A stretch of 64,000 bases of DNA from NCBI GenBank assembly GCA_019359595.1, contig JAHHGZ010000019.1, forward strand, positions 1 through 64,000, given 5' to 3'. The notes beneath the pieces are model-generated. The model was not told the origin of the DNA, did no database searches, and worked only from the letters and a program-made list of their open reading frames with translations. This document shows, in pieces, positions 59,316 to 64,000 of the stretch (its first letter is position 1; each line of letters starts with the position of its first letter). Source of the DNA: Cyanomargarita calcarea GSE-NOS-MK-12-04C. GTDB lineage: Bacteria; Cyanobacteriota; Cyanobacteriia; Cyanobacteriales; Nostocaceae. The translations under genes and the position numbers were made by a program.

Positions 59316-59426
59316 ACTAGTACTCCACCGCACTCGCTATGGTGGGTGACCACAGCCTCGATTAACCGAACACCAATGCGTCTACGAAAAATGTACCTGT
59401 CATAGCGAGTGCGGTCGAGTACTAGT
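59316..59426. mobile_element. 111-bp MITE with 26-bp terminal inverted repeats
   Basis: Left end ACTAGTACTCCACCGCACTC... (59316-59341) and the complement of the right end (59401-59426) agree at 25 of 26 positions. The interior 59 bp are unique. It lies in the 573-bp gene-free stretch 59232-59804. Just to the right, TTGAACCGCAAAGACGCTAA (from 59459) resembles a dispersed AACCGC-type repeat also seen at 54950. The rest shows no gene. Confidence 0.75.
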
Positions 59427-59804: not shown

Positions 59805-60770
59805 ATGAGTAAAGTCGTTGTATTTAATATCCGCAAAGGTAATTTTGAACAAGGTTTTCCTGTTACCCTGCTAATTAGTGAAGAAGGTAAGACCTACTAC
59901 TTTGAGAAAGAAGGATATTTTCCCTCAGCACCCACTCTACCCAAGCTTTATCGGAGTTTTCAAGAAAATTACAAGAATTTAGCATCGGTACAAAAAGTAA
60001 TTAATTCAAAATCGCAACCAAGAATACTTAAAATTGACACTGCTCAGACTACGAACTTCTCTAGTACGGAAAACTGCAAAGAAGCTACTAGAAAACTCGA
60101 AGTTTATCTTAGACAGTGGTTCCAACAAACAGATATTGTCTTATTGCGCCAATATGTGCAAGAAGAAATAGGCAAAGATGAATTGGCTCGCATTATCTTC
60201 CAGACAAATAATGAAATACTAAATAAACTACCTTGGCATCTATGGGAGTTATTTACAAATCGTCGCAAGGCTTGGTTATCTCTTGCTGCCAAACGCGCTC
60301 AACCTTCTACACCGCTCAAAACACCTATTAAAATTTTAGCAATATTGGGTGATGATAAGGGAATTAATCTTGACATAGATATCAGTTTATTAAACAATTT
60401 ACGAGGGGCGAAAATACAACCATTAAAAAACCCAACACCAAAGCAACTATGCGATAGTTTACGACAAGAAAAACCTTGGGACATTTTGTATTTTGCAGGA
60501 CACAGTTACAGTCAAAATGACAGCAATGATGGAGTAATTCAAATCAATGATATTGATACCTTATCCATCGCAGAGTTAAGAAATGCCTTTAGGAAGGCTA
60601 TAGAAAATGGCTTAAAATTAGCAATTTTCAACTCTTGCGATGGCTTAGGATTGGCGAATAAAATGGCAGAATTGGGAATTCCTCAGGTAATAGTGATGCG
60701 AGAACCTGTACCGGATGAAGTAGCGCATGATTTTTTACAAGTATTCTTACGTTCATTTTTTTACAGGTAA
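59805..60770 (+). CDS. CHAT-domain (caspase-like) protein, C-terminally truncated by frameshift
   Basis: 321 residues. Paralogue of the gene at 61472. N-terminal ~165-residue domain (KVVVFNIRKGNFEQGFPVTL start), then a CHAT protease domain with His233 in LYFAGHSYS and Cys278 in AIFNSCDGLGLA, the caspase-like dyad. In the paralogue the domain continues FLRLFSQGEPFYLAVRQAQE; here it breaks off at FLRSFFYR and TAA 60768. At the break lies a run of seven T (60756-60762); one T fewer would join the frame to the PstS-like piece downstream. So the gene is either a relic after an internal deletion or needs slippage. Upstream sequence resembles that of the second copy. Confidence 0.8.
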   Translation: MSKVVVFNIRKGNFEQGFPVTLLISEEGKTYYFEKEGYFPSAPTLPKLYRSFQENYKNLASVQKVINSKSQPRILKIDTAQTTNFSSTENCKEATRKLEVYLRQWFQQTDIVLLRQYVQEEIGKDELARIIFQTNNEILNKLPWHLWELFTNRRKAWLSLAAKRAQPSTPLKTPIKILAILGDDKGINLDIDISLLNNLRGAKIQPLKNPTPKQLCDSLRQEKPWDILYFAGHSYSQNDSNDGVIQINDIDTLSIAELRNAFRKAIENGLKLAIFNSCDGLGLANKMAELGIPQVIVMREPVPDEVAHDFLQVFLRSFFYR

Positions 60771-61287
60771 AATTACTAATTGGCAAGAAATAGGGGGACC
60801 GAATTTAAAGATTAAGCCCTTTAAAATTAAACGACAACAATATGCCGATTTGGTAATAGATCAAAACCAACAAAGAATTTTCAAAAACCCATATGGGGCA
60901 AATGTTCAAGAAATCGCTCGTCCGACCGAAGTGATGAATGCTGTGGCTAAGACTCCTGGCAGTATTAGTTACATTACATTCTCAGAAATAAAAAACCAAA
61001 AAAATATAAAGGCACAGACACGTATTCTACCGATTGCAGAACAACTTGGTTTTCCTTACGTTTCTCCATGTGAAGATGAAGAATGCAAAACTTATAACAA
61101 AAATGTGCTTACGACCTATCCTAAAAAACTAATCGGTCGAATATATGTGATTGCTAAAGATGATAAAAGCGAATATCACAAAAAAATTGGTGTTGCTTAT
61201 GCCAATATGTTATTAAGCGATGAAGGGCAAAAGTTAGTTAAAGAAGCAGGGTTTGTACCTTTACGGGTTTTGTCAGATAGCAATTAG
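60727..61287 (+). CDS. C-terminal half of a PstS-like periplasmic phosphate-binding domain (fragment)
   Basis: Coding sequence becomes homologous from about 60759: FFTGKITNWQEIGGPNLKIK, then KTPGSISYITFSEIK, RIYVIAKD and VAYANMLLSDEGQKLVKEAG, FVPLR. These are the late motifs of PstS-type phosphate-binding proteins (PBP-like). The N-terminal lobe, signal peptide and any membrane helix are missing, so alone it could not reach the periplasm. The first ~11 residues from ATG 60727 (MIFYKYSYVHF) overlap the CHAT frame and are not homologous. Best read as the detached C-terminal domain of the upstream CHAT gene. Confidence 0.75.
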   Translation: MIFYKYSYVHFFTGKITNWQEIGGPNLKIKPFKIKRQQYADLVIDQNQQRIFKNPYGANVQEIARPTEVMNAVAKTPGSISYITFSEIKNQKNIKAQTRILPIAEQLGFPYVSPCEDEECKTYNKNVLTTYPKKLIGRIYVIAKDDKSEYHKKIGVAYANMLLSDEGQKLVKEAGFVPLRVLSDSN

Positions 61288-61471
61288 CATAAATTAAGTA
61301 ACAATTGATATGTGGGGTTTTGAATTGAGTGTAATACATTAAAGAGTTTAAAACCGCACGATGAGCGCTGTACGCCTTCTGTGTAGGGTAGGACGCAGAT
61401 AAACTTGTAGCTTATCTGAATGTGAACCGCTATATAGGATAATATATTCTAAGTATAAACACTAACTATTC

Positions 61472-64000
61472 ATGGGTAAAGTAGTTGTATTTCATATTGA
61501 CGAAGGTAATTTTGAGCAAGGTTTTCCTGTTACCCTACGAATTCGTAAAGAGGGTGAAACTGTATACAGGGAAGAAGAAGGATATTTCCCTCCTGCACCT
61601 GATATTCCTGAGCTTTACTGGAAGTTTCAAAGAAATTACAATAATTTAGCATCCGTACAAAATGTTATTAGTTTAGAATCGCCACCAAGAGCTATTATAA
61701 TTGACCCGAATCAGATAACCAACTTTTCTACTTCAGTAGAGTGCAAAGAAATTGCTCAAGCACTACAACTTAGACTTAAGGAGTGGTTTCGGCATCCTTC
61801 TTTAGGACAACTGCGTGTATATGTGGAAGAGGAATTAGGCAAAACGGAATCGGCTCGGATTATTTTTCAGACTAATAATGAAATACTAAAAAAACTACCT
61901 TGGCATACATGGGAGTTATTTAAAAATCGTCGTCGAGCATGGTTTTCGCTGGGTGCTAGATATGCACCTCCTTCTCAACCGCTCAAAAAGCCAGTTAAGA
62001 TTCTGGCAATTTTAGGTGGTGATAAGGGAATTGATACCAGCACAGATGAAAATATTTTAAAAAAATTACCAGGAACACGAGTAAAAATTTTAAACAAGCC
62101 AACACAAACTCAGCTATGTGAGATTTTGTGGGAAAAGCCTTGGGATGTTCTGTGTTTTGCCGGACACAGTTCCAGTCAGGACGGAGGAACAGATGGAGTA
62201 ATTCAACTGAGCAATATCGATAGTCCAGCCCTAAATGACTTGAGGAATGCGTTCACGAGAGCGATTGAAAATGGTTTAAAGCTAGCAATTTTTAATTCTT
62301 GCGACGGATTGGGATTGGCAAATCAACTGGCAGAATTAAAAATTCCCCAGGTGATTGTGATGCGGGAAATTGTACCTGATGAAGTAGCACAAAAGTTTTT
62401 AGGAGAATTCTTACGTTTATTTTCTCAAGGTGAGCCGTTTTATCTAGCAGTACGACAAGCACAAGAGAAATTGCAATTTATTGAAAATAAATACCCCTGT
62501 GCTTCTTGGTTACCTGTGATTTCTCAAAATCCAGCCGAACCATCGTTACGCTGGCCAGAAACAGCGGTTGAGAAAATCAAACGTCGAATCCAGAGATTTT
62601 GGCGGGTTCGCAGGGTAACAAGTTTGGCAATTTTGGCGATAATCAGTTTATTACTAATCCTACTCAGTTATGTTTTGATAAGTATCCCTCCAGGAACACC
62701 TCCTAGCTTAAGCTTGGATGAACTATTCAGTCGAGGAGAAAGAATTTTAATTACAGGCAAAAGTAATTCCAGTAAAATAGAAGGGATATCAGCATTTGCA
62801 AGAAGAGATTGGGACTTTGCTATTAATAAATTTATCGAATCTCTGAAGAAAGTTCCAAACGATCCAGAAACCTTGATTTATTTAAATAATGCGATCGCTA
62901 TGAAAAGGGGTAATCAACTAGCGATCGCCATAGCTGTTCCCATTGGAGAATCTATTAACGTTTCTGAAGAGATTTTGCGTGGAGTGGCCCATTCTCAAAG
63001 TCAATTCAATTGTAGCAGTGTTGATAATTTAGCAAATGCTATTAAAAACAATCAGCCTCAAATTTGTAAGGGTGGTGTTGGTAACAAACCATTGTTAGTC
63101 GAAATAGTAAATGATCGGAATGATTCTGAAACTGCTAAAAAGGTAGCTCAAGAAATAGTTAAGGCTGAGAAACAGCAAGATATTTTAGCAGTTATCGGTC
63201 ACTATCGAAGCGAAACTACTATCCAAGCGGTGAAGGAAGGTTACCAACATAAAATTATTGTGATTTCTCCCACAAGCACTTCCACTACTTTAGATAGTTA
63301 CTCAGTTCTTCGCACGTCTCTTAGTGACAGAAATGCTGTTATTAATTTGTCTGAATATATCAAGACTAAATTGGTTCAGCAACCGATAAGAGCAACTGTT
63401 CTTTACAATAAAGACGAAGCTTATAGTGAGTCTATAAAAGATGCATTTAAATTAAATATTTCTTATTTGTCACCGAACATAAATATTACTAACTTGGGAG
63501 AACATAGTGTACAAGAAATTGTCAAGAAAGTACAACAAGAAAATGTTAATGTGCTATTACTAGCTCCTGCTGGGCTTGAGGATAATTTAACGAAAGCATT
63601 AGAAATAGTCAAGGAAGTCTCTAATCTCGAAAATAATCCAAATCTAATGCTATTGGGTGCAAGTACTATGTACAATCCCAAAACAACTAGTAGAGATTTT
63701 GGAAAGGCATCAGAAAAAAGCAAACTTTTAGTTGCTGCTCCCTGGTTTAGAAGCCAACCTCCTTCACCTTTTGAGCAAAATGCTAAAAAGATTTGGGGAC
63801 AATCAAAAGTCAATTGGTTGACTGCAATGACCTATGACGCAACTCAAGTAATTATTAAAGGTCTTAAGGAAATTAAAGGGCAAGTAAATCGTCAGTCATT
63901 ATTCACAGGTATAGGCTCCAATGTTCGGAACTTCTCAGCGGAAGGTGCTACAGCAGAAGTGCGATTTGAAGAAAGAGGTAGTCGCTCTACATCTAAAACT
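61472..64000 (+). CDS. CHAT protease - transmembrane helix - periplasmic ligand-binding domain protein, 3'-partial
   Basis: Open from ATG 61472 to the right window edge (843 codons read, no stop). Order: N-terminal domain (MGKVVVFHIDEGNFEQGFPV, ~1-160); CHAT domain with His232 in CFAGHSSSQ and Cys277 in FNSCDGLGLA, ending near PCASWLPVISQNP (~350); a basic segment and one transmembrane helix (SLAILAIISLLLILLSYVLI, ~384-403); then an extracytoplasmic Leu/Ile/Val-binding-type domain: AIAVPIGESINVSEEILRGV, DILAVIGHYRSETTIQAVKE, IVISPTSTSTTLDSYSVLRT, and WLTAMTYDATQVIIKGLKEI. The positive-inside basic stretch (KIKRRIQRFWRVRR) puts CHAT in the cytoplasm. This suggests a ligand-gated membrane protease; ligand and substrate are unknown. 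Confidence 0.88.
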   Translation, partial: MGKVVVFHIDEGNFEQGFPVTLRIRKEGETVYREEEGYFPPAPDIPELYWKFQRNYNNLASVQNVISLESPPRAIIIDPNQITNFSTSVECKEIAQALQLRLKEWFRHPSLGQLRVYVEEELGKTESARIIFQTNNEILKKLPWHTWELFKNRRRAWFSLGARYAPPSQPLKKPVKILAILGGDKGIDTSTDENILKKLPGTRVKILNKPTQTQLCEILWEKPWDVLCFAGHSSSQDGGTDGVIQLSNIDSPALNDLRNAFTRAIENGLKLAIFNSCDGLGLANQLAELKIPQVIVMREIVPDEVAQKFLGEFLRLFSQGEPFYLAVRQAQEKLQFIENKYPCASWLPVISQNPAEPSLRWPETAVEKIKRRIQRFWRVRRVTSLAILAIISLLLILLSYVLISIPPGTPPSLSLDELFSRGERILITGKSNSSKIEGISAFARRDWDFAINKFIESLKKVPNDPETLIYLNNAIAMKRGNQLAIAIAVPIGESINVSEEILRGVAHSQSQFNCSSVDNLANAIKNNQPQICKGGVGNKPLLVEIVNDRNDSETAKKVAQEIVKAEKQQDILAVIGHYRSETTIQAVKEGYQHKIIVISPTSTSTTLDSYSVLRTSLSDRNAVINLSEYIKTKLVQQPIRATVLYNKDEAYSESIKDAFKLNISYLSPNINITNLGEHSVQEIVKKVQQENVNVLLLAPAGLEDNLTKALEIVKEVSNLENNPNLMLLGASTMYNPKTTSRDFGKASEKSKLLVAAPWFRSQPPSPFEQNAKKIWGQSKVNWLTAMTYDATQVIIKGLKEIKGQVNRQSLFTGIGSNVRNFSAEGATAEVRFEERGSRSTSKT

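Follow-up and report, generated by a model that had tools for sequence, protein, structure and literature searches.

The predicted receptor-protease gene

The DNA analysed here (the window) is a stretch of 64,000 nucleotides, positions 1 to 64,000 of the forward strand of contig JAHHGZ010000019.1 of the cyanobacterium Cyanomargarita calcarea GSE-NOS-MK-12-04C. An earlier note on this DNA described, at its right-hand end, a tandem of two receptor-proteases in which CHAT proteases are joined to external solute-binding domains. The tandem did not hold up: there is one intact gene (gene 2), whose predicted product has the layout described, and upstream of it one deletion remnant (gene 1, taken up below). 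The contig supplied the rest of gene 2, whose stop lies 81 bases beyond the window. Its predicted parts are:

61472 to 64000 in the window, ending at contig position 64081, plus strand: gene 2, predicted CHAT-transmembrane-binding-domain receptor-protease, 869 residues, aligned with 23 further full-length relatives
61472 to 61990, plus strand: N-terminal alpha+beta domain, residues about 1-173; predicted local distance difference test score (pLDDT) of the model mostly 80-90, the loop at 67-83 being poor
61991 to 62548, plus strand: CHAT domain, residues about 174-359; PF12770, 43.6 bits (cut-off 24)
62624 to 62680, plus strand: single transmembrane helix, residues 385-403; mean hydropathy 3.0
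62720 to 62911, plus strand: juxtamembrane TPR-like helical segment, residues about 417-480; model helices at 433-479, and positions 29-68 of the family profile match designed TPRs
62915 to 64000, ending past the window, plus strand: Leu/Ile/Val-type (LIV-type, type I) binding domain, residues 482-868; PF13458 (Peripla_BP_6), 47.1 bits (cut-off 31.7)

Profile searches thus place both a CHAT and a periplasmic-binding domain in gene 2 above their cut-offs, and the LIV-type domain does follow one membrane helix. The proposed His-Cys dyad is present in both genes, with Cys277 correctly numbered; in gene 2 it consists of His232 (62165-62167) and Cys277 (62300-62302). The G-H and C of the dyad are invariant in all 65 relatives collected, so that no homolog with an inactive dyad was found among them. 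In the AlphaFold2 model of the whole protein (pLDDT 82, with low-confidence linkers at 67-83 and 398-412) His232 and Cys277 come directly after strands 226-230 and 271-274, respectively, as they do in the caspase fold. Domain and conserved dyad together suggest that this is a caspase-like protease. No solved relative of the N-terminal domain plus CHAT was found by sequence up to an E value of 0.1, and the fold-search matches listed for gene 2 are filled by the binding domain, so the identity of the CHAT domain comes from sequence. The score against the HetF equivalog model NF045509 was 22.7 bits (cut-off 1200), which does not make gene 2 a HetF.

Lysine and arginine residues number nine in the 25 residues preceding the transmembrane helix versus two after it. 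By the positive-inside pattern, this predicts a cytoplasmic CHAT domain and an external binding domain. The latter is predicted to have the fold of LivJ: solved LIV-type proteins match it with Z scores up to 26.4 (4mlc, 325 residues, root-mean-square deviation 2.6). Does it bind the ligands of LivJ? We compared four residues that we take to be LivJ ligand contacts, Ser79, Thr102, Tyr202 and Glu226. The first corresponds to S580, invariant in all 24 aligned sequences, and the second to T603, kept in most; Tyr202 and Glu226 are replaced in gene 2 by Ala and Ser, respectively. With half of the examined contacts kept, an amino acid or phosphate is at most a candidate ligand. A promoter and terminator scan gave no more matches than expected by chance.

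The neighboring genes and their conservation

Two genes lie beyond the window on the opposite strand:

contig 64197 to 65333, minus strand: DUF1822 gene; PF08852, 259.9 bits
contig 65367 to 66137, minus strand: gene resembling extracytoplasmic function (ECF) sigma factors; weak matches to sigma profiles

The sigma-like assignment draws on several matches, each under its cut-off: TIGR02937 (sigma70-ECF; E 1.6e-7, 31.1 bits, cut-off 42.9), Sigma70_r2 (17.3 bits, cut-off 24) and NF041236, the sigma model of type III-E CRISPR (E 1.4e-4, 21.8 bits, cut-off 100). Searches of solved structures with the sigma-like family gave weak matches, some of which are ECF sigma factors.

The sensor-protease layout, with CHAT in the cytoplasm, one membrane helix and an external binding domain, recurs in many cyanobacteria, which supports the layout proposed in the earlier note. 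A search for this architecture yielded 21 loci whose neighborhood was examined; within 3 kb, DUF1822 is present in 19 of them and a sigma-like gene in 18. Outside the clade of the window, the order is sigma, DUF1822, CHAT receptor, all on one strand. The association extends to versions in which the sensor is CHASE2 (14 of 19). In the host genome 8 of the 13 DUF1822 genes are beside CHAT genes of this kind, against about 0.2 expected by chance.

As a separate observation, CHAT-CHASE2 operons carry a 490-residue protein in the place of the sigma gene (L145:3304-4773, with counterparts in L146-L149); it matches TIGR02937 under the cut-off (2.8e-7) and has no Pfam match.

Comparison with known systems

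The nearest described class is that of Kaur, Burroughs, Iyer and Aravind (2021), in which an EACC2-caspase with a variable C-terminus accompanies an ECF sigma factor and DUF1822, and for which stimulus-driven self-cleavage was proposed (PMC8195603). Gene 2 shares with it a constant alpha+beta N-terminal domain followed by a caspase-superfamily domain, a C-terminus that varies among relatives and includes CHASE2 and STAND, and an adjoining DUF1822 gene, beside which the weakly sigma-like gene is a candidate for their ECF sigma factor. The N-terminal domain of gene 2, which is also common to the CHASE2, STAND and PstS versions, is probably their EACC2 domain; the match is by layout and neighbors, not by their EACC2 profile. 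One difference is that their text speaks of 'small-molecule-binding domains' and does not name LIV-type or PstS-like ones (PMC8195603). The gene 2 system probably belongs to this class and is not new in kind.

In CRISPR type III-E systems (CASP or Craspase: Cas7-11, Csx29, Csx30 and CASP-sigma), Csx30 inhibits an ECF-like sigma factor and is itself cleaved by the CHAT protease Csx29 (PMC10028731). Both sets combine a CHAT protease with an ECF-sigma-like protein and one further protein; control of a sigma factor through regulated proteolysis has been shown there, whereas for the gene 2 system we infer it. The two differ in that the trigger here would be an external ligand acting across the membrane, not RNA, and in that gene 2 is not a TPR-CHAT. 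PADLOC gave no match in the scanned proteins; no genome search for Cas7-11 was made.

Other precedents share single features. Fusions of a caspase homolog to a LIV-type receptor were listed in 2010 and 2021 (PMC2853523, PMC8283722); these orthocaspases or metacaspases with ANF_receptor or Peripla_BP_6 are likewise cyanobacterial caspase-like proteases joined to a LIV-type domain, but they have peptidase C14 instead of CHAT and no N-terminal domain (one locus of our collection, L040, is of that kind). HetF, a CHAT-TM-TPR protein (TM, transmembrane helix) whose function is abolished by an active-site mutation (PMC8406250), is also a single-TM CHAT protease of filamentous cyanobacteria, but without a binding domain. 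Some members of EACC1 'System 4' have a transmembrane helix and an external periplasmic-binding-protein (PBP) domain behind the caspase (PMC7159879); that system requires an EACC1 gene and is mainly actinobacterial, and gene 2 was compared with it by the caspase-TM-PBP layout. These reports (PMC2853523, PMC8283722, PMC7159879, PMC8195603) anticipate the ligand-gated caspase-like protease that the earlier note took to be novel. The open literature that we searched held no experiment on the EACC2-caspase/sigma/DUF1822 class and no link between this class and Csx29/Csx30.

A proposed signaling mechanism and its alternatives

What might such a protein do? We propose, with a probability of about 0.5, that gene 2 encodes a single-pass receptor-protease that works with DUF1822 and the ECF-like sigma factor through ligand-gated cleavage by CHAT; catalytic activity, ligand and direction of control are all inferred. 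What the sequences do show is the domain anatomy, the predicted topology and sensor fold, the invariant His-Cys pair, a conserved gene neighborhood and the exchange of sensors and outputs among relatives. A small ligand would close the LIV-type domain on the periplasmic side, the change would be relayed through the TPR-like hairpin and the transmembrane helix, and the cytoplasmic CHAT domain would thereby be switched on. It would then cleave DUF1822 (or itself), and cleavage would alter the activity of the sigma factor and hence transcription. DUF1822 is thus a candidate CHAT substrate or sigma inhibitor. We favor ligand-gated action on DUF1822 and sigma because CRISPR type III-E also pairs a CHAT protease with a third protein and a sigma-like protein. 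In a stronger version, which we hold tentatively and think somewhat doubtful, the CHAT receptor, DUF1822 and the ECF-like sigma factor would together work as the type III-E relay does, but at the membrane and without a guide, with DUF1822 as the cleaved sigma inhibitor and the sensor exchanged to change the input. The Craspase link is one of analogy, given that DUF1822 has no detected relation to Csx30.

Several observations weigh against the proposal. In the clade of the window (seven loci) the DUF1822/sigma pair and the CHAT gene point toward each other and so do not form one operon. DUF1822 also adjoins 8 of 14 STAND versions, which means that it is not specific to membrane sensors; an exclusive tie to such sensors is ruled out. 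The co-divergence of CHAT and DUF1822 paralogs is weak and not significant (Mantel r 0.54, equalled or exceeded in 2519 of 40320 permutations), and some of the sigma-like neighbors lack a significant Pfam or NCBIfam match. Lastly, sequence and fold searches with DUF1822 show no relation to Csx30, although absence from the match lists is not decisive. The DUF1822 model (pLDDT 83) had no PDB match below an E value of 0.001, and its best fold matches either covered common beta-sandwiches or aligned poorly.

The protease may instead act on its own chain. Self-cleavage, in which ligand-bound CHAT cuts its own polypeptide and the released piece is the signal, with DUF1822 and sigma acting later or in parallel, was proposed by Kaur et al. 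from the combination of a constant protease with a variable C-terminus (PMC8195603, PMC7159879), and cut sites could lie in the low-confidence linkers of the model (67-83 and 398-412). No conserved motif for cleavage came to light, though no search aimed at one was made, and Csx29, the CHAT protease that has been characterized, acts on a separate partner (PMC10028731); on balance we think self-cleavage as the signal rather unlikely. Alternatively, the binding domain could be a mere scaffold or docking part, comparable to the HetF-FtsI interaction, with CHAT controlled by something else. The changes at two of the four LivJ contacts (Tyr202 to Ala and Glu226 to Ser) would fit such a role, as would the precedent of HetF, a CHAT protein with one TM that belongs to the divisome (PMC8406250). 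It is made improbable by the retention of the lobe-1 contacts (S580 in 24 of 24, T603 in most) and by the occurrence in the same place of unrelated ligand-binding folds (LIV-type, PstS-like, CHASE2), which points to sensing.

A role in cell death or defense, which the earlier note had raised, would have the receptor respond to an invader product by killing the cell, for instance by way of a gasdermin-like pore. CHAT proteases do act in this way elsewhere, and the host is a multicellular-type cyanobacterium with 48 CHAT matches in its 7.9-Mb genome. Against this, PADLOC gives no match for the receptor, DUF1822 or sigma, the conserved neighbors are a sigma-like gene and DUF1822 rather than a pore or nuclease, the sensor has a classical solute-binding fold, and no evidence of a gasdermin was found; we regard this role as very doubtful.

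Were ligand-gated cleavage of DUF1822 to hold, a caspase-like protease would link a solute-binding domain to a sigma factor in a single step, and cyanobacteria would have a widespread form of one-component signaling in which such a protease stands in for the kinase. It would also explain why DUF1822 travels with CHAT genes, offer an experimentally easy non-CRISPR setting for studying the switching of CHAT proteases, and point to a possible origin of the protease/sigma relay of CRISPR type III-E.

Exchange of sensors and outputs

Relatives of gene 2 were taken from genome searches, and the 24 full-length sequences aligned (gene 2 included) come from the same family and from other families of the same order. 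(A pattern scan of genome contigs for gene 2 gave 17 matches, of which none was confirmed.) Across the relatives, the N-terminal domain plus CHAT is joined to a LIV-type domain, CHASE2, a PstS-like domain, two tandem LIV-type domains or nSTAND1-WD40. Intact CHAT-TM-PstS proteins occur elsewhere in the host genome (L020) and in a second genome (L123 in G074). Conversely, LIV-type and PstS-like domains are also fused to kinases and ATPases, and LIV-type domains to caspase C14 as well.

On the tree of the N-terminal domain plus CHAT, the type of C-terminus needs at least 12 changes versus a mean of 30.6 when shuffled; for the N-terminal partner on the LIV-type domain tree, the figure is 10 versus a shuffled mean of 19.2. 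Both are quick trees with some long branches. As judged from these sequences, exchange of parts in the family is real but not frequent. The sensor swapping put forward in the earlier note is thus supported at the level of the family, since cyanobacterial proteins pair an output (CHAT, caspase, kinase or ATPase) with a LIV-type, PstS-like or CHASE2 sensor; gene 1, taken alone, does not prove it.

Some relatives depart from the usual layout. In a 698-residue protein (L129:1938-4031, contig C7 of genome G126), the N-terminal domain and the LIV-type domain are present and the transmembrane helix comes already at residue 174; its CHAT domain seems to have been deleted in frame. Two proteins of 1239 and 1238 residues (L134:465-4181 and L135:546-4259) have CHAT-TM followed by two tandem LIV-type domains that sit apart on the domain tree, and the second copy may have been acquired from elsewhere. 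The host genome also has a very divergent CHAT-CHASE2 pair, L022 (C57) and L023 (C52), whose branch in the CHAT tree is long; DUF1822 is nearby only for the C52 copy.

The gene 1 remnant

The features upstream of gene 2 are:

59805 to 60770, plus strand: gene 1, N-terminal domain and truncated CHAT, 321 residues; PF12770, 56.3 bits (cut-off 24), covering only profile positions 123-248 of 289, with a stop after VFLRSFFYR
60757 to 61287, plus strand: PstS-like domain (its second half), in a different frame from gene 1; PBP_like_2 (PF12849), profile positions 116-267 only
61333 to 61436, plus strand: copy of a short dispersed repeat, in the gap separating genes 1 and 2, with about 30 further genome matches to the whole or parts of it

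That the adjacent genes share an N-terminal domain and CHAT was borne out (PF12770, 56.3 and 43.6 bits; 61-63% identity across these parts), and gene 1 keeps the dyad His and Cys. A PstS-like half is indeed present beside gene 1, but it is a half only, it lies in another frame, it begins in mid-domain (FTGKITNW...) and its 22.2 bits are below the cut-off of 27. The locus has neither a transmembrane helix nor the first part of the PstS-like domain, and the deletion junction lies in a run of seven T at about 60757-60763. A homopolymer error in this run could mimic the frameshift, but not the missing parts. From these features gene 1 is a decayed relative from which an internal deletion and a frameshift took the end of CHAT, the transmembrane helix and half of the PstS-like domain. 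A working second receptor is ruled out by the truncated CHAT, the lack of a transmembrane helix, the half PstS-like domain and the frameshift. Over the parts that genes 1 and 2 have in common, the ratio of nonsynonymous to synonymous substitution rates is about 0.30; this suggests that, until decay set in, selection acted on both for the most part.

How did gene 1 arise? It could be the relic of a swapped sensor, or two neighboring genes could have been joined by one deletion, and it is for this reason that gene 1 cannot itself show swapping. In the latter case, to which we give even odds, the PstS-like half was never fused to CHAT, and a CHAT-LIV gene became joined to a neighboring kinase-TM-PstS gene through the loss of a large stretch of DNA. 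Consistent with this, the CHAT part of gene 1 groups on the tree with CHAT-LIV proteins and not with intact CHAT-PstS proteins, and the PstS-like half best matches a kinase-TM-PstS protein from another genome (G111; 52% identity), whereas it shares only 34% identity with its own genome's CHAT-PstS protein. On the other side, intact CHAT-TM-PstS proteins exist (L020 and L123), so that a direct ancestor of that form is possible.

Upstream of gene 1, at 59316-59426 of the window, there is a 26-base inverted repeat with arms 96% complementary and 59 bases between them; it resembles a small mobile element or a hairpin.

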